NCBI GenBank assembly: GCA_030652115.1
Contig: JAUSBK010000007.1
Coordinates: 248,001 to 312,000, forward strand
Reading direction: 5' to 3'
Length of the DNA stretch: 64,000 nucleotides
From: Coriobacteriia bacterium
Lineage (GTDB): Bacteria > Actinomycetota > Coriobacteriia > Anaerosomatales > Anaerosomataceae
Shown: one piece after another, positions 3,408-58,756 of the stretch
Layout of the letters: each line of letters opens with the position of its first letter
How positions within the stretch are numbered: position 1 is the stretch's first letter
Notes under the pieces: model-generated
The model's input: only the letters and a program-made list of their open reading frames with translations
Database searches by the model: none
Told to the model about the DNA's origin: nothing
Program-made: the position numbers and the translations under genes

Positions 3408-5117
3408 GTGGAAACGACGGTTCTCATAGTCCATGACGATGCCGCGTTCTTCGAGGCCACGAAGGCCGCGCTCCTCGCAGCGCTACCGGGATGCGACGTC
3501 ATCGGGGCCATCTCGGCGCCGAGGGCGCTCGGCATGGTGCGGCAGCACAAGCCCGATGTGGTCATCGCTGACGGCGATCTCGAGGGCATGGATGGCTACG
3601 CGTTCACTGCCGAACTGAAGGGTGATGCTGAACTCTCATCGATTCCGGTGCTCATCGTCGCCAACGATCCCTCCGAGGCCAGTGCGCTGAAGGCCCGTCA
3701 GGTCGGCGCCGCCGGACACCTGCCCGTTGGGATAGACAGTCAGTCGCTCGTACAGAAGGTGGCGGCGCTCGCAGGTGCAAGCGCCGCCGCTGCGGCCGCT
3801 CCGGCACCTGCGCCCGCGCCCGCGCCGTACGCTGAGACTGCGCCCCCCGCCGCCCCCGCAGAACCACTCGGTGTGGGCGGAGCCGCGCCGGTACCGTCCG
3901 CAGCACCCGCACCCGCACCGGCGCCCGTCGCCGCCCCCGCCCCGACCCCCGGGCCTGCCGCATACGGCGCTCCGCAGGAGCTGCCTACCGGCTACGGTGC
4001 CCCTCAGCCGGCTGCCTCACCCGACGTTCGCGCGTCGGCAGCGGGCAACGCGCCGCACGTAGACGACCTTCTGCGCCTGATGATCGACTTGGGGGGTTCG
4101 GACCTCCATATCACGGTCGGCAGCGCTCCCGGCATCAGGGTTCGCGGAGAACTTGCGTCTGTCGAGAACTACAAGGTACTCACGCCGAAGGACACGCAGG
4201 AGATGCTTCTGAGTCTGCTGTCCGAGGAGCAGAGGCGCCGCTTTGAGACGGAGCTCGAGCTCGACTTCGCTTACAGCATCCCGGGTCTGTCCCGCTTCCG
4301 TACGAACATCTTCCAGCAGCGCAACTCGATGGGCGCCGTCTTCCGCGTGATCCCGCTGAAGATCCCGACACTCGACGACCTGCAGCTGCCGCGCGTGTGC
4401 AAGTTCCTCGCCGACCGTCCACGCGGCATGGTGCTTGTGACAGGGCCGACGGGTTCCGGTAAGTCCACGACGCTCGCCGCGATGATCGACCACATCAACG
4501 AGACGCGACCGGTCCACATCATGACGATGGAAGACCCGATCGAGTTCATGCACAAGAACAAGAAGGCGTTTGTGAACCAGCGCGAGGTGGGCGAGGACAC
4601 CCACTCGTTCACCTCGGCACTCAAGCGCGTCTTGCGTCAGGACCCCGACGTCATCCTCGTCGGCGAGATGCGTGACCTCGAGACGATCTCCGCGGCCCTC
4701 ACCGCCGCCGAGACCGGCCACCTCGTCCTCGCGACCCTGCACACCACCGGTGGCCCTGAGACGGTCGACCGTATCATCGACGTGTTTCCGCCGCACCAGC
4801 AGCAGCAGGTCCGCATGCAGCTCTCGACCACGCTCGAGGGCGTGCTGTCGCAGACCCTGTTGCGCTCGACCGACGGCCGAAGCCGCGTGATGGCGATGGA
4901 GATCATGCTGGGCATTCCCGCCATCGGCAACCTCATCCGCGAGGGGAAGACGCACCAGATGGCCACGATCATCCAGGGCGGCGCCTCGATGGGAATGCAA
5001 ACTTTGGATCAGCACCTGAAGGTGCTGCTCCAGTCGGGTAAGGTCACCTACGAGGAAGCGATCCAGAAGGCGAAAGAACCGCGAGAGCTCGCGCAGATGG
5101 TGGGACGCAAGATCTGA
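3408..5117 (+). CDS. pilT: Twitching ATPase PilT with N-terminal receiver-like domain
   Basis: A 569-residue hexameric ATPase that retracts type IV pili, but about 210 residues longer than ordinary PilT. Residues 4-123 form a response-regulator receiver domain with D55 at the phospho-acceptor position, yet the switch Thr is Ala85 and the conserved Lys is Val107, so it looks degenerate. A Pro/Ala-rich linker spans about 124-215. The PilT part keeps the Walker A GPTGSGKST (346-354), Asp box EDPIEF, Walker B region and the C-terminal AIxNLIREGK signature (505-514) that marks PilT rather than PilB. The GTG at 3408 has AAGGAGG at 3392-3398. No pilin genes are nearby, so the pilus must be encoded elsewhere. 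Confidence 0.93.
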   Translation: METTVLIVHDDAAFFEATKAALLAALPGCDVIGAISAPRALGMVRQHKPDVVIADGDLEGMDGYAFTAELKGDAELSSIPVLIVANDPSEASALKARQVGAAGHLPVGIDSQSLVQKVAALAGASAAAAAAPAPAPAPAPYAETAPPAAPAEPLGVGGAAPVPSAAPAPAPAPVAAPAPTPGPAAYGAPQELPTGYGAPQPAASPDVRASAAGNAPHVDDLLRLMIDLGGSDLHITVGSAPGIRVRGELASVENYKVLTPKDTQEMLLSLLSEEQRRRFETELELDFAYSIPGLSRFRTNIFQQRNSMGAVFRVIPLKIPTLDDLQLPRVCKFLADRPRGMVLVTGPTGSGKSTTLAAMIDHINETRPVHIMTMEDPIEFMHKNKKAFVNQREVGEDTHSFTSALKRVLRQDPDVILVGEMRDLETISAALTAAETGHLVLATLHTTGGPETVDRIIDVFPPHQQQQVRMQLSTTLEGVLSQTLLRSTDGRSRVMAMEIMLGIPAIGNLIREGKTHQMATIIQGGASMGMQTLDQHLKVLLQSGKVTYEEAIQKAKEPRELAQMVGRKI

Positions 5118-5192: not shown

Positions 5193-5621
5193 ATGGATGT
5201 CGTCAACGTGAAGTGGAACGGCAAGCGCCGGTTCGTTGGCTGGGACGAAGCCGGACACGGTGTGGTCATGGACGCGCCGGCGGGTCCCACGGCAGATGGC
5301 AGCGGCGCGCGTCCCGTCGAACTCGTCCTGTATGCGCTCGCCGGGTGTACGGGCATGGATGTCATCTCCATCCTCGAGAAGAAGCGGCAGACGGTCACCG
5401 ACTTCAGCCTGGTCGTCCACGGCACCCAGCGCGAGGACGGCTACCCGCACATCTACAAGCGGATCGAGGTCGAGTACATCGTGACCGGCGTCGACGTCAA
5501 GCCGGAGGCGGTCGCGCGAGCGATCGAGCTTTCCGAGGAGAAGTACTGCTCGGTGCGCGGCATGTTCGGTCCTCAGGTCGAGGTCGTGACGAGCTACCGG
5601 GTCGTCGAGGCGGAACTCTAG
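5193..5621 (+). CDS. OsmC/Ohr-family peroxiredoxin-like protein
   Basis: A 142-residue OsmC-family protein. This family reduces organic hydroperoxides with two cysteines; here they appear in LAGCTGMDV (about residue 57) and in EEKYCSVRGMF (about residue 115), the usual positions. The Arg expected near the active site cannot be fixed by eye. The ATG at 5193 follows GGAGAGGA at 5177-5184; a GTG immediately before it is the alternative. It heads a compact cluster: one base separates it from the glycosyltransferase, followed by BshB1-like and BshC-like genes, which suggests a role linked to thiol chemistry (inference). Confidence 0.85.
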   Translation: MDVVNVKWNGKRRFVGWDEAGHGVVMDAPAGPTADGSGARPVELVLYALAGCTGMDVISILEKKRQTVTDFSLVVHGTQREDGYPHIYKRIEVEYIVTGVDVKPEAVARAIELSEEKYCSVRGMFGPQVEVVTSYRVVEAEL

Positions 5622-5622
5622 C

Positions 5623-6330
5623 GTGACCTCGAGCTGCCCTGACGCAGTCGTGCTGCCCGTCTACAACGAGGGCGGCACGGTCTCCAGCGTCCTGGACGCG
5701 GTGCGGCGTGTCTACGACGGCATGGTGATCGTGGTCGACGACGGCTCCGATGACGAGACGCCGCTCGTACTTGCCGAGCGCGATGACATCGTGGTGATCG
5801 CCCACGCCGCCAACGCAGGGTACGGCCGCTCGCTCATCGACGGCTTCGCTGCGGCGCTCGCCGCTGGCGCGGATGCAGTCGTGACGATGGACTGCGACGG
5901 ACAGCACGAGCCGGCCCATATCCCTGAGTTCCTGACGGCGCTCGGTGACTGCGACATTGCGTCGGGGAGCCGCTATCTGGGGGCAAGTCCCGTGGTGGGG
6001 ATGGCCCCTCCGTCGCGTCAGGACGTCAACCGCCGCGTCACTACGGCGATCAATGCGGCGACTGGCTGGTCGCTCACCGACGCCTTCTGCGGCTTCAAGG
6101 CGTATCGCGCGAGCGCGTTGCGCTCGATGCGACTCACCGAGCCGGGCTACGCCATGCCGCTCGAGCTATGGGCCGAGGCGCATCGGGCCGAGCTGTGCGT
6201 GATCGAGCTGCCTGTCGCGCGCATCTACTTCGACGGCGACCGGTCCTTCGGCCAGGACCTCGATGATCCCGACCGCCGTCTCGGGTACTATCTGCGGGTG
6301 TGGGAGCATGCCCTCGCAAGGGAGGCCTGA
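5623..6330 (+). CDS. GT2-family glycosyltransferase, DPM1-like
   Basis: A 235-residue cytoplasmic GT-A glycosyltransferase. It begins with LPVYNEGGTVSSVL, then VVDDGSDDET for nucleotide binding and DCDGQHEP carrying the metal-binding DxD-like acid, followed by SGSRYL, the order seen in dolichol/polyprenyl-phosphate mannosyltransferases. No membrane segment is evident. The GTG at 5623 begins one base after the OsmC stop; its own TGA overlaps the next start by one base. The sugar donor and acceptor are unknown. It could feed a lipid-linked sugar pathway or glycosylate the precursor used by the deacetylase downstream, but the second idea is only positional. Confidence 0.85.
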   Translation: MTSSCPDAVVLPVYNEGGTVSSVLDAVRRVYDGMVIVVDDGSDDETPLVLAERDDIVVIAHAANAGYGRSLIDGFAAALAAGADAVVTMDCDGQHEPAHIPEFLTALGDCDIASGSRYLGASPVVGMAPPSRQDVNRRVTTAINAATGWSLTDAFCGFKAYRASALRSMRLTEPGYAMPLELWAEAHRAELCVIELPVARIYFDGDRSFGQDLDDPDRRLGYYLRVWEHALAREA

Positions 6331-7010
6331 TGGCAGACGTCGTGTGCGTCGGTGCGCATCCTGACGATGTTGAGATCGGGATGGGCGGTACCGTGGCCGC
6401 GCTCGCCGCGCGGGGTGCGGATGTGCTGATCGTGGACCTCACCGACGGCGAGCCTACGCCGCACGGGACCCACGAGCGGCGGATGGCCGAGGCGGCCGAG
6501 GCCGCGCGCCTGCTCGGATGCAGGAGAGTGACGCTCGAACTCCCCAACCGATACCTGTTCGACAGCGTGGAGGCTCGCACCGCGCTTGCCGAGGTGCTGC
6601 GCGCCGAACGGCCGACGGTGTTGTTCGTCCCGTATCCGGAAGACGCCCACCCGGATCACCTCGCCGCGTCGCGGATCGCCGAGGCCGCCCGGTTCTACGC
6701 GAAGTTCACGAAGACCGACATGACCGGCGAGCCGCACTACGCCGCGCGCGTGTACCGCTATATGGCGGTCCATCTGCGGCTCGTGCGTGAGCCGTCGTTC
6801 CTCGCCGACATCACCGCCACGCTCCCTGCCAAGCTCGCTGCGCTCGGTGCGTATGGCTCACAGTTCGGCGACAACCCGGCGAACACCGGGATCGTCGAGC
6901 TGATGGAGCAGGGCGCCCGCATGTGGGGCGGCATCGGCCGGGTCGGCGCCGCCGAACCCTTCTTCGCGCTCGAGCCGCCGGTCGTGCGCTCCGTCCTCGA
7001 CCTCATCTAG
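6330..7010 (+). CDS. PIG-L/LmbE-family deacetylase, BshB1-like
   Basis: A 226-residue zinc deacetylase of the PIG-L family. AHPDDVE supplies H10 and D13, and DAHPDH supplies H110, the metal ligands in BshB1. The stretch around HLRLVREPSFLADIT and the ending resemble BshB1, which removes acetyl from N-acetylglucosaminyl-malate during bacillithiol synthesis; MshB of mycothiol synthesis is the other relative. The ATG at 6330 shares a base with the upstream TGA and has GGAGG at 6321-6325. Because a BshC-like gene follows nine bases later, a thiol-synthesis role is favoured over general polysaccharide deacetylation, but no BshA-type glycosyltransferase is in the window. Confidence 0.82.
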   Translation: MADVVCVGAHPDDVEIGMGGTVAALAARGADVLIVDLTDGEPTPHGTHERRMAEAAEAARLLGCRRVTLELPNRYLFDSVEARTALAEVLRAERPTVLFVPYPEDAHPDHLAASRIAEAARFYAKFTKTDMTGEPHYAARVYRYMAVHLRLVREPSFLADITATLPAKLAALGAYGSQFGDNPANTGIVELMEQGARMWGGIGRVGAAEPFFALEPPVVRSVLDLI

Positions 7011-7019
7011 GGGCCGGGG

Positions 7020-8570
7020 ATGACTGTCCACGAACGCCAGAAGCCGCCAGCGGGTCACGGCGAGGTGCTGTGCTCGCCTCCGTTTTCGACGTGGCACGAG
7101 CTCGTGGAGCGCAACTCAGCCGCGGTCGCCGGGTGGCCCGCTCCGCTGCGAGCCCTGCGCGAGCAGGCACGCTCGGAGACGGTTGCCGAAGCGGTCCGGT
7201 TCAGCGGCTCTATCGGCGTGTCGGGCGAATCGGCCTCGGCGGAGACCCCGATCGTGATGACCGGTCATCAGCCCGAGCTGTACCACCCGGGCGTGTGGGT
7301 CAAGGTCTTCCTCGTGGACCGGCTCGCCGAGGAGATCGGCGCGCTCGGGCTCGATCTGGTCGTCGACACCGACGCCGCCGAGCTGGTGGCGCTCCGCGTG
7401 CCGTGCCTGCGCGACGAGGTGCGCGTCTGCGAGGTGACGCTCGCCGAAGGCGGCCCGGGCGTCGCATACATGCAGACACCCGTGCCGACGGGCGAAACGC
7501 GCGCGGCCTTTCGGGAGAGCGGGATCTCCGTGCTTGAGGGGCTGCCGGCGCCGGCGCTTCGTCGGCACTTCTCGACGTTCTGTGACGCGCTCGATGCCGC
7601 TGCCCCGGACGCGACCGACCTGGGCACGCTCATGACAGCGGCGCGTCGCCGCTACGAAGCACCCGCGCAGACCGCGTACCTCGAGGTGCTCGCGTCGGCG
7701 CAGTCGCGTCTGCCGTCGTATCGCGCCTTCGCAGCCTCGTTGCTCTGCGATGCTTCCCGCTTCCGTGTGGTCATGAACGATGCGCTCTCGGAGTATCGGA
7801 CGCGCACGGGTTCGCGCTCGGCGGCGCAGCCCTTCCCGGATCTTGCGGAGCGCGACGGTCGGGTCGAGGCGCCGTTCTGGCTGCTCGACGACGGACGGCG
7901 CCGCGCGGTGAGCGTGGGTTCGGACGGCACGTTGTTCGCCGACGACGAGGCCGTGGCGGCACTCGGCGCTACGACCGATTCGGCCGCTCGCGCGCTCGAG
8001 AGACACGACCTGCTGCTGGCTCCCAAGGCGCTCACGCTCACGCTGTTCCAGCGCCTGTTCGTGGCCGATCTGTTCGTCCACGGCACCGGCGGCGGGCGCT
8101 ACGACCGCGTCACCGATGCGGTCATCGCACGCTACTACACCATCGAACCGCCGCAGTTCGCGATCGCCTCGATGACGCTGCTGCTCCCCCTCGGCGCGCA
8201 CGTCGTCTCCGACGAGGACGTGGCCGAGGCCGGGCGGCGGGTCAACCGCTTCGAGCACAATCCGGACTCGCTGCTGCCCGAGGTGGAGTTCGACTCGGCG
8301 CCGGAGCGAGTCGAGGCAGAGGCGCTTGCGGCGCGTAAGGCCGAGGCAGTGGCGGCGATCGCGGCACCGGGCGCTGACCGCAAAGAGCTCGGCAAGACCA
8401 TCCGCGACCTCAACGCGCAGCTGTCCGCGCTTCTCGAGCCGGTGGGGCAGGTGCTCCGCGAATCACTCGAACGGGTCCGCGCCGAGCGTAAGGCCTCCTC
8501 GGTGCTCACCGATCGCACGTATCCGTACTGCCTCTGGGACCCCCGCGAGGTCATGGATAAGGTGCGGTAG
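7020..8570 (+). CDS. Large BshC-like protein, possible thiol-synthesis enzyme
   Basis: A 516-residue protein. After a ~75-residue lead, TGHQPELYHPGVW matches the position and style of the TGQQ-type motif of BshC, the putative cysteine-adding enzyme of bacillithiol synthesis; a DTDAAE motif replaces the usual GEDHD stretch. Later come LFVHGTGGGRYD, and a C-terminal coiled coil (about 425-490) as in BshC. Length is close to BshC (about 540). The identity between this family and true BshC looks low by eye, so function is inferred mostly from these motifs and from the adjoining BshB1-like gene. The ATG at 7020 is preceded by a G-rich ribosome site. It is the last gene of the OsmC cluster. Confidence 0.6.
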   Translation: MTVHERQKPPAGHGEVLCSPPFSTWHELVERNSAAVAGWPAPLRALREQARSETVAEAVRFSGSIGVSGESASAETPIVMTGHQPELYHPGVWVKVFLVDRLAEEIGALGLDLVVDTDAAELVALRVPCLRDEVRVCEVTLAEGGPGVAYMQTPVPTGETRAAFRESGISVLEGLPAPALRRHFSTFCDALDAAAPDATDLGTLMTAARRRYEAPAQTAYLEVLASAQSRLPSYRAFAASLLCDASRFRVVMNDALSEYRTRTGSRSAAQPFPDLAERDGRVEAPFWLLDDGRRRAVSVGSDGTLFADDEAVAALGATTDSAARALERHDLLLAPKALTLTLFQRLFVADLFVHGTGGGRYDRVTDAVIARYYTIEPPQFAIASMTLLLPLGAHVVSDEDVAEAGRRVNRFEHNPDSLLPEVEFDSAPERVEAEALAARKAEAVAAIAAPGADRKELGKTIRDLNAQLSALLEPVGQVLRESLERVRAERKASSVLTDRTYPYCLWDPREVMDKVR

Positions 8571-49884: not shown

Positions 49885-50973
49885 GTGAACCGGCGCATCA
49901 GCCCTAGCAGGCGGGGGCCGCTAGTCGCTTGCATAGTCTCGCTCGCAGCGCTGTTGTGGGCGGGTAGTGCGCTGTCCGCCTACGCGTTCGCTCCGCCGAT
50001 CGGCGGCCTCGGAACCGGGACGACCGAGCCCTTCAATCTCTTCGACTGCGACCAGTGTCACGCCGCCGACAGCCAGGCGCCGCCTGCAGACGGGAGTGGC
50101 CCGCACGGCAGTTATGCGACGACCACCTCGAAGTGCTCGGTGTGCCATGACGTGCACAACGCGCCAGCGGGCGGAATCCTACTCCTGCGCGGGGCGACGG
50201 TGAGCGCCGCCTGTCTCACGTGTCACGACGGCACGCAGAGCGGCATCGGGCCGTATGACACGATCGAGGCGCACGGCGGCGTTGTCGCCGCCGAGCACGA
50301 GACCGACGTGACGAATGTGATCCCCGGAGGGTCAGTGAACCTGACGGGTTCGTTGGGCTGCTCCGACTGCCATAGCGTTCACGGTGCCAACACGGTCGCG
50401 CCGTTCCTGCGCGACTCCGGCTTCTCCGGCACCACCTACATTGGCGGCGCGGACGCGTACGTGACGTCAGACTGTCTGCTTCGAGCGGATGTGAACGGTG
50501 CATCGGTGGCCGAGTACGGCGCGCTGTGGTGCGCCGCCTGTCACGACGAACGACACTCCGGTTCGGCGACGACGATCAACCACCCGGTGGACGACGCCAC
50601 CGACTGGGGCTACGGGGATGTCGTGTCTACGGTAACGCTGGACTCCTGGCGTGCCGGTCCGTATGACGGTTTGGGCAATGCCATCGGCATGGGGCGCACG
50701 AACGGCGGCTACATCATGGCTCCGGCGGCCGAGGACGGCGACGGGCGCGTTGTAACGCGGCGTGATCCGATGTGTCAGCAGTGTCACGAGGACGCGCGGA
50801 ACGTGACCGAGATCTTCAGCGCCGACTACACGTATCGCGGGACCGATCCGTGGAACACGCCGATCAACCCCGAGTTCGTCACCTTCCCGCACCAGACGAC
50901 CAACGCGACGATGCTGGTCGAGCAGTACGACGACCTGTGCCTCAACTGCCACCCTGTCTCTGGGCTCCCGTAG
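49885..50973 (+). CDS. Secreted heptaheme c-type cytochrome
   Basis: A 362-residue protein with a Sec signal (about 1-34, ending SAYA) and seven CxxCH heme sites starting at C55, C84, C110, C159, C216, C297 and C352. Several are followed by histidines (CHDVHNAP, CHSVHG) as in small multiheme electron carriers. No membrane helix follows the signal, so it is probably released or wall-associated. GTG at 49885 has GAAGGGA upstream. It is 43 bases before the giant cytochrome and likely passes electrons to it. No known named family was recognised; a substrate enzyme (for example nitrite reduction) cannot be excluded, but the CXXCK hallmark is absent. Confidence 0.88.
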   Translation: MNRRISPSRRGPLVACIVSLAALLWAGSALSAYAFAPPIGGLGTGTTEPFNLFDCDQCHAADSQAPPADGSGPHGSYATTTSKCSVCHDVHNAPAGGILLLRGATVSAACLTCHDGTQSGIGPYDTIEAHGGVVAAEHETDVTNVIPGGSVNLTGSLGCSDCHSVHGANTVAPFLRDSGFSGTTYIGGADAYVTSDCLLRADVNGASVAEYGALWCAACHDERHSGSATTINHPVDDATDWGYGDVVSTVTLDSWRAGPYDGLGNAIGMGRTNGGYIMAPAAEDGDGRVVTRRDPMCQQCHEDARNVTEIFSADYTYRGTDPWNTPINPEFVTFPHQTTNATMLVEQYDDLCLNCHPVSGLP

Positions 50974-51016: not shown

Positions 51017-54000
51017 TTGCAGATGCGTACGCGTCGCAGCCCCGGCAGGCGGTGGATCTGGCTTACAACGCTTGGCGTGGCGCTGATTGTCGCGTGCGCG
51101 ACCGTTGCGTTTGGGTGGATCACGTTCGGAGACGTTCCGACCCTGACAGGCAGAGGCTCGCTGTCAGGCCTGGGAACGGGCCACGTGAAGGACGTGCCTG
51201 GTTCCCCGGATATGGCCACGGAGTCCGCGGAAGGGCAGTCATCGAATTCCCGGGCAGGGCTCGCGCCCACACCCCCGGACGGTTCGTCATCCGAGCCTCG
51301 TGTGACCACGCAGAAGTCCGACAAGCCCAAGGACAAGGTCAAACCGCCAAAAGGCGGCAACCCCGAAGACCCGCCGGTCGACCCCGAAGATCCCCCAACC
51401 GACCCCGAGGACCCGCCGGTCGACCCCGAGGACCCGCCGGTCGAACCTGAGGACCCACCGGTAGCCGAGGCCCCCTCGGCGCCGGTCCTTGTCGCCTGTA
51501 CGTCCGGGGACATGAAGGACGTCATCACGTTCGAGCTCTCGGCTGGCGGTCCCGTGTCGTACTTCGCGCTGCTTCGCTCAGCCAGCGCCGATGGCGAGTA
51601 CTCCGTGGTGGCAACGGCGTCCGCAGAGGCTCGCGTCTTCTCGTATCCCGTGAGCGAGACGGGCGCCGCGTTCTACGTCGTGAGCGCGAGCGGCCCCGGC
51701 GGCGAGAGCGGACCGAGTGAAGCAGCCGAGAACTCGCTGGTCGCGATAGCAGAGTCGGTGTCGCCGGAAGGACGGGTGCTCGCCTCATCGAACGGCGAGG
51801 TCGTCCTGAGCCTCCCCGCGGGGGCGTTCGGCGCCACCACCGACGTCGGCGTGACCGAGGTGTCCGCTTCTCCCACGGGCGGGCTCATCAGCCTGTCGGG
51901 CGTCTACGAGATCACGCCGTCCGGTGCGCTGTCGGCGCCAGCCGTTCTCTCGGTGCGCTACACGCTTGCGGTGACCCACTACCAGGTCGTTCAGACACTC
52001 GTGAACGCCGCCGAGATCATGACCTACGATGCACCGGCGGGCGGGTGGATCGCCGGGGCGAGTGGTGTCACGGCCGACGGTACCTACCTCAGCGGTACGC
52101 TGGATCACTTCAGCTACTGGACCGGTGCGGTCGTGGAGCCTCACGGCACCGCCGAGACGACGTACTGTTCGGACGGCGGCATCTGCCACGACCTGAGCAC
52201 CTATCCCGGCTCAACCGTGCGCTACGACACGCGGGACTCGCAAGTCTGCTTCAACTGCCACGGCAACACCTCGGCAGCGCTTCCCGCAGCCGGGGCGAAC
52301 GGCCCGAACGTCGAGGGGCAGTTCTATCAGTGCGACGGCCAGACGCGGCCCGTGGGCTCGACCATTCACCCGGTCGCCACCGGTGACCTGTACTGTACGA
52401 TCTGCCATGACCCGCACGCCGACCCGGCCGCATCGCCCGGGCTGCTGCGCGCGTGGGACCCGCTGACAGGCACCTACGTTCAGGGAGGGTCGGGCTCGGG
52501 GCCGGGCGACCGGTACTGCTGGGCGTGCCACGGCACCGTCGTGAACAAGCGCACGAACTACTACGTGCCGAACTACTGGGCAAACAGCGGCGGCGACCGC
52601 AAGACCGGGTACGTGGGCACACCGCACGCGACGATCGAGACGGACAGCGACGTCACCTGCACCGCATGCCACGCGGAGCACGGCTCGGATGAGGCTGCGC
52701 TGGTACTCGATGAGTTCGAGACGCCCGGTGGCACGGTGGCGGTCTCGCGCACGAGCGACATCTGCCTCGCGTGCCACGCTGCCAACACGACGGTCTACCC
52801 GGGAAGTGAGACTGCAGGGGCACAGAAGCACGTGACCGTCACATCGTCCACGAAGGCGCTCACTCGCTATCCCGGATCGACTGCCGAAGGTCAGGGCTGC
52901 ACCGGGTGTCACGAGCCGCATGGCAAGGGCGCCGGCACGTCCTACACGTGGGTGGGTGGGCGCGATCTGTGCCTCACCTGCCACGACGCGGCCGGTCTCA
53001 CCTATGGCGCCGACTACTCTTACCAGGGCCCGTCGGCGTTCGCAGCATCGGGGCACGATGGTCTGACCGGCGCGCTCGGGTACTTGAGCATCGATGCGAC
53101 ATCAGACGATTCTGCGGCATGGCAGTCGGCGACGCTCCCCACGCCGTCGTCCCCTGGAACGCCGATCGATGCGAGCGGTCTGTCGGCGATCGAATCCGCG
53201 GACGGTGTGCTGCTCAGCACCGCCCTGCAGACGGTGACCGGCTCTTCGGACTACCAGATGTACCGATTCAAGATGCCGGCTGACAAGACCGCCGTCGCCA
53301 CCGTCTCCCTCACCTGGAAAGGCTACGGCGAGGCGGCGCCGGGATATCCGGTCACGGTATCGGCGTGGAACGAGGGCGCCGACGGATGGGACCAGATCGA
53401 CAGCCGTGTGCTCGGCTCACCGCAGCAACTTGTGCTGAATCTGACGCCCGCGAACCATATCGGCACTGACGGGTACGTGTACGTGCTCGCGCAGGCGAAG
53501 TACGTCTACGACGCGGCGATCGTCTCGGGGCCGACCGTCAGCGCTCCGTACGCGTGGAATCCGTCGCTCTACATGGTGCAGTGGACGACGGCCGGACTCG
53601 CCAGCAGCCTCGTCGACTACGGGGCGACCACGGCGTATGGCACCACGGTCGGCAGTGCCGACGAGCGGGTCACCAATCACGTGGTGTGGCTCACGATGCC
53701 CGCTGGCCTCACGCACATGCGCGTGAGGTCGGCGTCGTCTTTCGGCGAGAGCGCCGCATCGGCCGACACCATCATCACCTATCCGAAGCCGACGATCGCG
53801 TCCACGAACCCGTCCAGCCTGATCTGGTACGACGTGCCCGTCTCGACCACCCTGACGTGGAACGCGATGTCAGCCCCTGGCGGCCCGTTCCAATACCGCG
53901 TGCAGGTGCTGTTCGGCGGCTCGCAGGTGCTGATGACGGATTGGACGACGAGTCTCTCGCACGTGTTCTCCACGAGCACGCCGGGCGGCTACAGCTGGCG

Positions 54001-57000
54001 CGTGGAGGCGCGTGATGCCTCACAGACCTCGTACGGCTGGTCCGCCGCCGCCGCGTTTGGCGTGGCGGACGGCAACTACACCGGTTCGTGTCCGTTCCTG
54101 TTCACATGGGACGGCGAGAAGATGGCCTTCGAGGCGGACCTCTTCACGGCCGCCCGTATAGGCGGGCGAAGCGCCAACGGATTCCTACAGCCGAACCCGA
54201 ACGACGCCTATGTGCTGGCGCACGTGCCCGAAGCGAAGGACGGCTCCCTGGAGTTCAGTCTCGTTGAGGAGCGCTACGAGGTGAACTACCTCGACTACCT
54301 CGCGCTCTACGCGGTTGACGCGCCCGTCGGCACGACCGTCTACGCGCAGAAGGCGGTCGCGGGTACGCGGGCGTTTCCGCCGCTCGCATCGGCGATCCAT
54401 ACGGTGCGCGAGCTCACCGCGCCGGTGTCCGTGGTGCGGACTGACACCGGTGCCGATGTGAGCTTCCAGGTCGCTGCCGACGACGGGATCTGCCTGGAAC
54501 TCAGCGAGGATCGGGAAACGACATTCACCTACAAGACGATCGAACTCGATCTTGGCCCCGGAGCGGCAAGTGCCCCACAGGTGAAGATCGTGATGGACGC
54601 GGTCACCGAGTTCCCCGTGACACCCGCAGGCATCGCCCGTCGGTTCACGTTCGGCCTACCGTCCAAGCTTGAGGTGCAGAATCCCGACGGCACCTGGAGG
54701 TCGGTCCCGTCCTCGGTCGGCGCCGTGCCGGTGGCTCCCGAGTTCACGCGTCCGTACGTGTTCGATCTCACTGATGCCATGGCTGGCACCACCGGGCGCG
54801 TACGCTTCACATTCCTGTTCCGCACGCTCATCGATTCGATCGGCGTGGACCTGACCGCCGACGAGCCGGTGACGATCACGCCGGTTGAGCTCACCGGCGC
54901 CGACCTGCGATACCACGGCGTGGACGAGGAGCTCGGCACGGCTGGCGATGCGCACTTCGTCTACGGTGAAGACCTCACGGACGGGGCGTACTTCCCGGGG
55001 ATGTACACGCGCTTCGGTGACGTATCCGAGCTGCTGGCCGAGAGCGACGACAAGTTCGTGATCATGGGGCAGGGTGACAAGATCGCTCTGAACTTCGCCG
55101 TGCCGGACGAACCTGCCGAGGGTGCCGAGCGCTCGTACGTCGTGAGCGTGCTCGGCTACTACAAGGACCTCAAGACCGACGTGCCGCGCACCGTTGAGCC
55201 GCTGCCCTTCGCGGCGATGAGCAACTACCCGTACCCCGCCGAGGAACACTACCCCGACGACGCCGAACACCAGGCGTATCAGGCAGCGTACAACACGCGG
55301 GTCGACGGCAGGTCTGAGGCGATCGGCGCCACGAGCGCGCTCGGCACTATGCTGGAGGGTGCCGTCGCGGCGCTCCGGGACGCTCTGCCGCTCGCAGCGG
55401 CGTCCACCGGTGAGTCGGACCTCGTCGCGCACCGGTCGCTCAACACCGATCTGGTGACGCTCGAGGTGGCAGTGACGTCGACAAGCGGCGCCGGCGGGGA
55501 GTGTGGCGTGTGCCACGCGATGCACGGCTCAACCGAGCAGGGCCAGCCGCTCACCGGAGGCCGCATCGCCTCCGACGGCCGCACCTGCACCGCCAACGGC
55601 TCCGGCGGCTGCCACGACAACGCCGCGAACTCGGCGTCGGGCATCGACATCCGGGCCCAGTTCACCGCGAGCGCGAGCCCCACGGCTCACCACGATGTGC
55701 TGCTCGCAGACCAGGCGGCAAGCGGCGGCAAGACAGCCTGTGCGGACTGCCACAATCCACACCTGAACAACGGAACGAACAAGATATCGGACCCGGACGA
55801 TATGTCCGTCGCTCTCGGGACGTCGCTTGGATCGACGATCGCGTCGTCCGGCGAGGTGTATCTGCTTGCGGGTGCGAAGCACGACGGCAACGCGCCCGTG
55901 ATCTCGAGCGTCGTTCTGAATGGGGCAGGCGCGCAGTATGCCAGCCCGTTCATCACGTGGACGACCGACGAGCCGGCTACGTCATACATAGAGTGGGGCC
56001 TCACGACCGACTACAGCGAGACGCCCTTCGGCAACGGCACCCTGGCGGTAAGCCACTCGGTCCAGATGACGGGACTCGTGGCCGGTACCACCTACCACTA
56101 CCGGGTTCGCAGCACCGATGCCCTGCTCAACACGTCCGTCTCCGGCGACTACACCTACACGCCTGTGGCGCCGCCGCCAACGCCCACGATAACGGATCAC
56201 ACGACGTTCTCCGGCGGTGGCTATGGCCCGATCCCCATCACGATGACCGGGGGAACCGTGACCGCACCGGATGGCCACGCGGTCCAGTACCAGTTTCAGA
56301 TCAGCAACCTTGGGGCGTGGACGTCGGGATGGCTCAACACGCCCTCGTGGGACACCTCGACCTCGGGGCTGCTCTTCTACAACGGCAACTACACAGTGAA
56401 GATCCGAGCGCGCGATGCCGTCGATACGCAGGCGGTCTCCGCGTGGTCGGCGAGCGACGCGTTCAACATCACGCTCGCCGCCTATCCGCCTTCGTCGTGT
56501 CCCTTCGTGTTCGTCTGGGACGGGGACAGCTTCAGCTTCGAGGCCGACATCAGCACCACCGGCAAGCTCGCGGAGAAGACATCCACGGGGTACTCGAGGC
56601 CCGATCCGCGGGACCGCTACAAGTTGATGACGGAGCCGCAGGTCAAAGACGGCGCTCTGGAGATCAGGCTTGTCGAGGAGCGGCTGGAGATCGATTACAG
56701 CGACGAGATCGCGCTCTACGCGGTCGATCTTCCTGAAGGCGTTGACGTGTACGCAGAGAAGGGCGTCCGCGGGGCGCCCGGGCCGGTTCCACCGGAGGGC
56801 CTGCACACGGTGACTGACCTGCGCACGCCGCCGACGGTGCGGACGGACACCGGCGAGTCGGTGACGGACCTCGTGACCGAAGCTGACGGCGTGACACTCG
56901 TGCTCAACGAGGACCGAGAGAACTTCGAGTACAAGACGCTCGAGATGGACCTCGGTGACGTCCGGGACGCTTCGCAGGTGAAGATCGTCATGAACGCTCA

Positions 57001-58756
57001 GACTGCCCGGCCGCTCACCACTGCCGGCATCGCACTCCAGCGGACCTTCGCAGCTACCACGATCCTCGAGGTGCAGGACATCTCCGGGCAGTGGAGGACG
57101 GTGCCGACCACCGAGGCGACGCTCCCGAACGCCATGGAGTTCCCCCGCAGCTACGTGTTCGAGATCGGGCCGGCCATGCACAACACCACCGGGAAGGTCC
57201 GCTTCACGTTCCTCTTCAAGACGTACGTCGACATGATCGGGTTCGATACCTCGGCGGACCTGCCACTCGAGGTCACCGAGGTCCCGCTTGCGTCGGCGGA
57301 GCTTGGCTACCATGGCATCGATGGGCGCACCGGCACCGGTGAGGTCTACGACTTCGTATACGGCGACCCCGTGAACGCATTCCCGTTCCCGCCGGGCAAC
57401 TTCACCAAGTACGGCGATGTCACACCATTGCTGGACGGCGTGGACGACAAGTTCGTGATCTGGGGCCCGGGCGACGAGCTCGTGCTGCGATTCGACCCGC
57501 TTGCCGCGCCCGCCGAAGGCCTGAGCCGCGAGTACGTCCTGTTCAGCGAGACCTACTACAAGTCCCAGAAGTCAGACACGCCATTCGTGGTCGAGCCGCT
57601 GCCGTTCGCGGCGATGAGCAACTTCCCGTACCCGGCGGACGAGCACTATCCCGACGATGCCGAGCATGACGCGTATCTCGCCGAGTGGAACACGCGCGTG
57701 GACGGTGCCGGCCCGGTTTCGGCCGTCTCGAGTGCATCGTCAACCGAGTGGCTCGACTATCACGTGATCACGCCGCTCATGTATCAGGGCATGTTCTCAG
57801 TGGATACCGACTATGCGGCAGTGCGCACACTCGTGGGAACCACGGCGACCTACGTCCAGGCTGCCGCGGGCTGGCAGAGCCAGTCGGCCGAGGGCAGCAA
57901 GCCCACGCCGTCCGCGCCGGGCGCTGCCGTCTTGTCCGCGACGCTCGATGCGGCCGACAGCGACGATGGCGCCTACTGGCAGACGGACCTCACCTCGACG
58001 GACTCGGTGTGGAACTGGCAGGTGATGCGGTTCGACCTCGGCGCGGATGCGCTGAGCACGCTGAAGGCCCTCTCCGTTGTCTGGAACGGGCACGGTGAGC
58101 CCACTGCGGGTTATCCGACCGCGGTCTTCATTTGGAATCCGACCACCAGCGCGTGGGAGGAACTGGGAAGGTTCGTGTCCGGGACCGACCGCACAGTCTC
58201 CATCGAGCGACGCGCGCTGAGCGAGAGCTTCTGCCTCAGGTGCCACGACGGCGCGCCGCCAAGTGGCGTCGTGTTCCCAGCCGGGAGCAGGAACGTGGGT
58301 GCCACGTGGGGCAGCGTATCCGGTGACTTCCACGGTGCAGGCTCGGGCACGGGACTCGGCTCGGCTATCGCTGCGCCGTACGCGCGGGGTCAGGCGGCGA
58401 TCAACTGCGGTGCTTGCCATGAATCCCACGGCAGCGCGAACGTGTACCACTTCCCGACGTGGATCAATGGGACCTCGGGAATCAGCGTGCCGAGTGCGTC
58501 CGGGGCGGGTGCTGCGGCGGTGTGCGGCGCCTGTCACGTGACCGCAGGCGGGACCACCTACTCCCTCGTCGACGAGTATCACAAGGGGTGCGTGGATTGT
58601 CACAGGGCCGACCACGGCCAGTGGACATTCGTTGGAACCGACTGCCTCTCGTGCCACACGCATGGTGGCACCTGGGACCATCAGTGCAACTACGGCACGA
58701 ACTACAACGACTGGGGTTGCCACTGTGGCGTCCCGGGACCGTACAAGACGTTCTAG
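51017..58756 (+). CDS. Giant secreted multiheme cytochrome with duplicated beta modules
   Basis: A 2579-residue extracellular protein. Signal/anchor about 11-36 (with an IVAC lipobox-like site); PEDPPV-type repeats about 112-150; a ZU5-like domain about 245-375. Fourteen CxxCH sites fall in three groups: seven at 411-656, two at 1496-1579, five at 2406-2547; extra CX5CH (384), CX7CH (1524) and CX10CH (2557) occur. Two modules of about 405 residues, 1025-1432 and 1828-2231, are clear duplicates (each starts CPF-x-F-x-WDG and ends in PLPFAAMSN...NTRVDG), each after Fn3-like repeats. A second duplicated ~100-residue domain lies at about 695-815 and 2275-2400. Start: TTG 51017 or ATG 51023, site AGGAG. 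Probable extracellular electron conduit (inference). Confidence 0.85.
51355..51468 (+). repeat. PEDPPV-coding proline-rich repeat
   Basis: Roughly six units of 18-24 bases coding for Pro-Glu-Asp-Pro-Pro-Val/Thr, near the start of the giant cytochrome. It would form an extended acidic spacer crossing the cell wall. Confidence 0.8.
54089..57712 (+). repeat. Two ~1.2-kb copies of a large protein module
   Basis: Copy A spans 54089-55314 and copy B 56498-57712, with about 1.2 kb between. They share WDG...FEAD openings, a DKFVI...GD core and the EHYPDDAEH ending. Similarity is clear at protein level, weaker at DNA level, so the duplication is old. Confidence 0.85.

Follow-up and report, generated by a model that had tools for sequence, protein, structure and literature searches.

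Genes that look like a second route to a bacillithiol-type thiol in one actinobacterial family and many planctomycetes

Do the closely packed genes of a Coriobacteriia locus encode the synthesis of a low-molecular-weight thiol, and if so, by which route? The locus occupies positions 5193-8570 of the 64,000-nucleotide stretch analysed here (the window; positions 248001-312000 of contig C7, from a genome of 2.38 Mb that is 98% complete). It consists of four genes encoding an OsmC-family protein, a GT2-type glycosyltransferase, a BshB1-type PIG-L deacetylase and a BshC-like protein. An earlier sequence-only reading had named it as a candidate source of a variant of bacillithiol or of some other conjugate of cysteine with a sugar, a proposal supported by the co-occurrence of the genes across genomes. 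Leaving OsmC aside, the genes for GT2, deacetylase and BshC-like protein resemble a second route, hitherto unrecognised, to a bacillithiol-type thiol, which one actinobacterial family has in common with many planctomycetes. We consider it probable that they constitute an alternative pathway to such a compound. The accessible sections of a 2018 survey place Planctomycetes among the major lineages for which no low-molecular-weight thiol was documented or predicted, and expect new thiol backbones to come from genomes in which the recognised pathways are partial or missing (PMC6282198).

All four genes were confirmed, on the plus strand, as that reading had described them. They are the genes for the OsmC-family protein (5193-5621, 142 aa; PF02566, 3e-16, 60.1 bits against a cut-off of 27.5), the GT2 (5623-6330, 235 aa; PF00535, 4.3e-21), the deacetylase (6330-7010, 226 aa; PF02585, 1.1e-26) and the BshC-like protein, the proposed ligase (7020-8570, 516 aa), which lies outside Pfam and NCBIfam and was assigned by fold and profile-profile comparison. 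A 1-base gap, a 1-base overlap and a 9-base gap separate them, and each has a GC content at the third codon position of 0.84-0.87. When a collection of genomes from 84,980 species was scanned for the BshC-like ligase, 43 loci were obtained. All 18 actinobacterial loci keep the OsmC-GT2-BshB-BshC-like run as far as the contig extends; the order is complete in 15, in one of which the BshC-like gene runs past the contig end, while the other three are interrupted by contig ends. Since all 18 repeat the same run, the arrangement is more than chance. Of 296 Actinomycetota genomes, 4 have the ligase, every one of them from the family of the window, while it was not found in the 20 listed genomes from other families of its class. 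The 25 loci outside Actinomycetota belong to planctomycetes plus one Armatimonadetes and one 'Bacillota' record. Here the GT2 gene adjoins that of the ligase in 23, and no deacetylase was found near the ligase by tblastn. Singulisphaera acidiphila DSM 18658 and Paludisphaera soli JC670 are two named planctomycetes that carry ligase and GT2. The first loci had suggested that GT2 and BshC-like protein form the core and that the deacetylase is an addition peculiar to the actinobacteria, an idea that was dropped when BshB1 proved to be present but unlinked. Shadow frames in GC-rich DNA partly distort the order of neighbouring genes, and cluster counts and a few checked neighbour positions were used instead.

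The linkage of these genes is complemented by their distribution across genomes. One sample of 246 Planctomycetota genomes was searched with five models. Canonical BshC (PF10079) is present in 129 of them and the BshC-like ligase of the alternative module in 41; 76 have neither ligase, and no genome has both (Fisher 7e-16). BshA (E<=1e-62, 125 genomes in all) is found in 122 of the 129 canonical-BshC genomes and in none of the 41. BshB1 (E<=1e-38, 165 genomes) follows both ligases, being present in 126/129 and 39/41, respectively, and in 0/76 of the genomes with neither. This BshB1 cut-off was fixed before the search, after 37 genomes with the BshC-like ligase had been viewed, and it admits a second BshB1 paralogue that scores 140-160 bits; tightening it to E<=1e-48 leaves BshB1 in 36/41 BshC-like genomes. 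In those 37 genomes PF10079 is absent (0/37), and BshB1 exceeds the cut-off of its model, TIGR04001, in 23 and reaches at least 167 bits in 34. The sequence-only reading had pointed to the co-occurrence of deacetylase and BshC-like gene as something to look at, and the ligase is indeed rarely found without BshB1, though the two are unlinked in the planctomycete loci inspected. The GT2 profile (E<=1e-40) matched 46 of the 246 genomes, of which 41 score at least 246 bits and five score 143-152 bits. It scores at least 275 bits in 40 of the 41 BshC-like genomes and 246 bits in one of the 205 others, the next score being 152 bits (Fisher 9e-44). The tie between the GT2 and the pathway is stronger than the sequence of one locus could reveal. 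It does not rest on linkage, because the GT2 gene lies near that of the ligase in only 24 of 41 planctomycete loci (15 of 30 sampled loci within a 1.5-kb ligase flank, and 9 of 11 further loci, L162-L172, within the fetched region). Eight of the latter (L162-L163 and L165-L170, from G330, G362, G423, G439, G500, G513, G558 and G569) form a divergent BshC-like branch of 110-170 bits that still adjoins the GT2 gene in 8/8 loci. A functional swap fits the exclusion pattern best.

For the ligase of the window there was no match in Pfam (E<=10) or NCBIfam (E<=0.001), and such single-profile searches gave no sign of BshC homology. The support came from structure and from profile-profile comparison, and both uphold the label of a distant BshC-like protein given to it earlier. 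An AlphaFold model made from a 33-sequence alignment (mean predicted local distance difference test score, pLDDT, 95.1; predicted template-modelling score 0.90) has the fold of BshC. Foldseek ranked Bacillus subtilis BshC (4WBD) first in the PDB with E 4.2e-14, followed by class I lysyl-tRNA synthetase (8.9e-5) and then other synthetases. VIA-align gave a Z of 27.2 to 4WBD (454 residues aligned, root-mean-square deviation 6.3), 19.8 to lysyl-tRNA synthetase over 269 residues and about 10 to MshC. The Foldseek template-modelling score (TM-score) to 4WBD is only 0.51, and the domain arrangement therefore probably differs from that of BshC. When 41 BshC-like sequences were aligned with 15 canonical BshC sequences using hhalign, the result was 92.6% (E 4.4e-7, 389 columns), and the TGHQPELYHPGVWVK motif of the BshC-like proteins was paired with the TGQQ motif of BshC. 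With the 33-sequence alignment on its own, the result was 68.8% (E 4.5e-5). Decoys, consisting of one column-reversed and five column-shuffled BshC alignments and two other families, scored 0.1%. Of 13 clusters of neighbouring open reading frames, one represents the BshC-like family itself and reached 100%; the other 12 are unrelated, probably include some shadow frames, and did not exceed 2.4%. Judged by its profile, the protein is a distant homologue of BshC. The 12 actinobacterial sequences group as a single clade when 71 ligases are placed in a tree (Shimodaira-Hasegawa-like approximate likelihood ratio test, SH-aLRT, 100).

The deacetylase of the window scores 178.5 bits with TIGR04001, just below the cut-off of 182.5, and 46.2 bits with the MshB model, for which the cut-off is 224.35. 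A tree of 64 deacetylases is split by a branch 0.59 long (SH-aLRT 100). On one side are 43 from genomes with the BshC-like ligase, 32 planctomycete and 11 actinobacterial, including that of the window. On the other side are all 20 from canonical-BshC genomes, which were hand-picked from the list of BshB1 matches, plus L087. The latter comes from G015, a genome with the BshC-like ligase whose second gene above the BshB1 cut-off was left out of the tree; in the comparison of residues its row was counted as canonical, following its position in the tree. The AHPDD and HPDH motifs, which we take to form the zinc site, are kept in both groups. P42, T43, P44, N73, R74, R121, K125 and H148 are fixed in 50/50 deacetylases of the BshC-like group, while the canonical group has mainly G43, T44, D73 (21/21), G74 and a gap at 147-149. 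By tree and alignment, the BshB1 of BshC-like genomes is a distinct, specialised subfamily, and its additional basic residues give a hint of an acidic aglycone.

A pathway of three steps can be proposed from these assignments. The GT2 would, in place of BshA, move N-acetylglucosamine (GlcNAc) from uridine diphosphate-GlcNAc onto a small anionic acceptor X, which might be malate or another acid or a phosphorylated compound. The specialised BshB1 would then remove the acetyl group from GlcNAc-X, and the BshC-like ligase would link cysteine to the freed amine, giving cysteinyl-glucosaminyl-X (Cys-GlcN-X). The analysis shows homology, fold, co-occurrence, the mutual exclusion with BshA and canonical BshC, and the specialisation of the deacetylase; from these we infer the sugar nucleotide, the anionic acceptor, the cysteine and the soluble thiol itself, the cysteine and the GlcNAc by analogy with homologous enzymes. 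In the actinobacterial family of the window the three genes stand behind that of OsmC, while in planctomycetes those for GT2 and ligase often adjoin, with the deacetylase encoded elsewhere. It is quite plausible, if short of an even chance, that this module yields a chemically new thiol that differs from bacillithiol in its aglycone or anomer, and that, as parts of the same reading, this thiol serves as the counterpart of glutathione in one actinobacterial family and several deep planctomycete lineages and the module arose in parallel with the BshA-BshB1-BshC pathway. A variant of the three-gene pathway in which replaced or diverged enzymes make ordinary bacillithiol (Cys-GlcN-malate), so that the enzymes would be new and the product not, is also possible, though it should be held tentatively. 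The catalytic motifs of BshB1 are unchanged, and one planctomycete genome (G422), the only GT2 carrier that has no BshC-like ligase, carries a canonical BshC in addition to the GT2 (the BshC scores 301.6 bits with the 15-sequence profile), which means that what the GT2 makes may be acceptable to canonical BshC. Against this stand the separate clade of the deacetylases with their fixed basic residues R74, R121, K125 and H148 and altered loops (P42-T43-P44; N73), and a ligase that has diverged past detection as a sequence family; a changed substrate is suggested by both. G422 also has BshB1, gave no BshA match at E<=1e-62, and retains in its GT2 28 of 36 invariant residues, among them those of catalysis. 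A GT2 that replaces BshA would lead one to expect this combination, but BshA may be missing by chance, since the assembly is in many contigs.

The glycosyltransferase had been called DPM1-like rather than BshA-like from the sequence, and this held. Besides the PF00535 match it has a DxDxQH motif and acceptor-phosphate arginines, and D90, D92, Q94, H95, R117 and R132 are invariant in 30/30 alignment rows. The first four align with D89, D91, Q93 and H94 (the DADLQH motif) of Pyrococcus furiosus dolichyl-phosphate mannose (DPM) synthase, and the arginines with its Arg117 and Arg131. According to the accessible part of a study of that enzyme, these two residues and Ser135 hold the acceptor phosphate (PMC5526996). 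The position of Ser135 is occupied by Asn in the GT2. In its sequence the GT2 has DPM synthase and ArnC as best relatives in the PDB, and together with the invariant arginines this would suit a glycolipid or surface sugar, in which polyprenyl-phosphate-GlcNAc made by the GT2 would be deacetylated by the PIG-L protein and its glucosamine aminoacylated by the BshC-like protein, and the product would not be a soluble thiol. We regard this as improbable. The model of the GT2 (pLDDT 93.6) is about equally close to ArnC, DPM synthase and glucosyl-3-phosphoglycerate synthase (GpgS), with TM-scores of 0.68-0.76 by query length. No C-terminal membrane domain was seen on inspection of the protein, which ends at residue 235 with the last model helix at 232, no transmembrane predictor having been run. 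The glycolipid would also leave unexplained why exactly these genomes lack BshA and BshC but retain BshB1. GpgS is soluble and acts on a small, anionic acceptor molecule, and a soluble GT2 with an acceptor of this type is the simplest reading. DPM synthase is inverting and GpgS retaining, and the sequence similarity of the GT2 to GpgS is low (24-26 bits). Planctomycete GT2s such as those of L018, L027, L034 and L037 have Cys-rich C-terminal tails (GGCC, CSCG, CGCP), for which metal or thiol binding is possible; Cys occurs within the last 40 residues in 18/19 non-actinobacterial and 3/11 actinobacterial GT2s.

Several observations weigh against a three-gene thiol pathway. The closest PDB relatives of the GT2 by sequence use polyprenyl-phosphate acceptors. 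In the ligase, neither a signature specific for cysteine nor a cysteine-binding site could be identified. The sampled genomes are not phylogenetically independent, and the Fisher tests treat relatives as independent. The 'Bacillota' record (ZC3RG07, G017) and the Armatimonadetes record (G018) have no clear BshB1, the best matches being 116 and 38 bits, respectively, and in a metagenome-assembled Phycisphaerae genome (G029) the BshB1 gene is broken over two frames. Two BshC-like planctomycetes (G421, G369) lack BshB1 at E<=1e-38 and one (G442) lacks the GT2. Finally, seven canonical-BshC genomes gave no BshA match and only one of these has the GT2, so absence of BshA does not by itself imply the GT2. 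The other six (G483, G349, G364, G538, G549 and G551) may represent incomplete assemblies, a diverged BshA or a third glycosyltransferase.

The ligase raises the further alternative of a pathway shaped like that of bacillithiol in which a different amino acid is added and the product is not a thiol. No column of the ligase alignment has a conserved cysteine (at most 14 of 33 rows), which, like the cysteine-binding site that could not be placed, is in line with this, and folds like those of class I tRNA synthetases accept many amino acids. We nevertheless find it very unlikely, as the mutual exclusion of this ligase family and BshC alongside BshB1 points to the same role for both. That the deacetylase serves another process, for instance hydrolysis of conjugates as done by Mca, with unrelated neighbours, is hardly credible, for although PIG-L proteins have many roles and planctomycetes several PIG-L genes, it is the only PIG-L protein of the window genome, falls in the shared clade and co-occurs with the ligase unlinked (39/41 against 0/76).

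The OsmC protein, which the sequence-only reading had included in the combination, is not supported as a core part of the pathway. Its gene adjoins that of the GT2 in all 15 actinobacterial loci that contain both genes whole, and tblastn found no OsmC near the ligase in the 25 other loci. It is not regarded as core because its linkage to the ligase is confined to the actinobacterial family, and it is probably an accessory peroxide-reducing enzyme. Its closest NCBIfam model is NF008009/PRK10738 (107.8 bits, under the cut-off of 138). The usual reductant of OsmC/Ohr proteins is a lipoyl protein, and OsmC is for this reason weak evidence for a thiol. Two other neighbours were considered as parts of the pathway and rejected. 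In three Phycisphaerae loci (L034, L037, L040) a sugar isomerase/epimerase-like TIM barrel (PF01261) lies closely downstream of the ligase, and over 81 loci the only further match was a weak one in L213. In loci of Isosphaeraceae type (L018, L020, L022, L027, L031) an Eis-like GNAT acetyltransferase (PF13527) lies downstream of the ligase, as assigned by a Pfam scan of L022 and an NCBIfam scan of L022 and L027. It is specific to this clade, and by analogy with MshD in mycothiol synthesis it might acetylate the product.

In the window itself, the gene immediately upstream of the run (3408-5117, plus strand) encodes a type II/IV secretion (PilT-like) ATPase that is fused to a receiver domain of the response-regulator type. 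Farther away, two adjoining genes on the plus strand encode a 362-aa protein with seven CXXCH motifs (49885-50973) and a 2579-aa multihaem cytochrome-like protein with 14 CXXCH motifs and matches to Paired_CXXCH_1 and MtrC/MtrF-like models (51017-58756). They are perhaps involved in extracellular electron transfer.

If the proposed pathway is correct, it would be a second route to bacillithiol-type thiols and name the missing glycosyltransferase. It would also give a function to a ligase family unmatched by any Pfam or NCBIfam model, and indicate which thiol an actinobacterial family with no detectable MshA or MshB may use. No description of the GT2, the ligase or a low-molecular-weight thiol of planctomycetes was found in the literature searched, including the accessible parts of PMC6282198, PMC12719100, PMC7278568, PMC8261052 and PMC10881302, with subscription papers mostly outside the scope.

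The module resembles several known systems in part. It shares with the mycothiol pathway (MshA-MshB-MshC-MshD) the occurrence in Actinomycetota, the cysteinyl-glucosamine logic and the class I synthetase fold of MshC. However, the window genome has a single PIG-L gene, the BshB1-type one of the run, with no second PIG-L or MshB deacetylase, and the ligase is far closer to BshC (Z 27) than to MshC. The sequence-only reading had suggested a search for bshA or mshA elsewhere in this genome, and no examined match reaches either cut-off: for MshA, six of 13 GT4 matches were scanned with TIGR03449 (best 128.3 bits against 462.5), and for BshA all 13 fall under the cut-off of TIGR03999 (best 101.3 against 273.7 bits). 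The GT2 has the fold, the D-D-Q-H catalytic motif and the two acceptor-phosphate arginines of DPM synthase and ArnC, but differs from them in the absence of Ser135, in showing no C-terminal membrane helices on inspection, and in its genetic linkage with a deacetylase and with a ligase of BshC-like type. With GpgS, which has no known link to thiols, it shares the fold (TM-score about 0.7) and little of the sequence. The N-methyl-bacillithiol pathway (NmbA) is a known bacillithiol variant, but according to the accessible sections of the two reports it keeps the standard BshA, BshB and BshC enzymes and adds a methyltransferase (PMC6282198; PMC12719100). The closest likeness in logic is to the BshA-BshB1-BshC pathway of bacillithiol itself, with its three steps, BshB1-type deacetylase and ligase of BshC fold. 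Here, in contrast, a GT2 is present where the GT4 enzyme BshA is absent, the ligase lies beyond PF10079, of which the window genome has no match, and the deacetylase belongs to a subfamily with other conserved residues.

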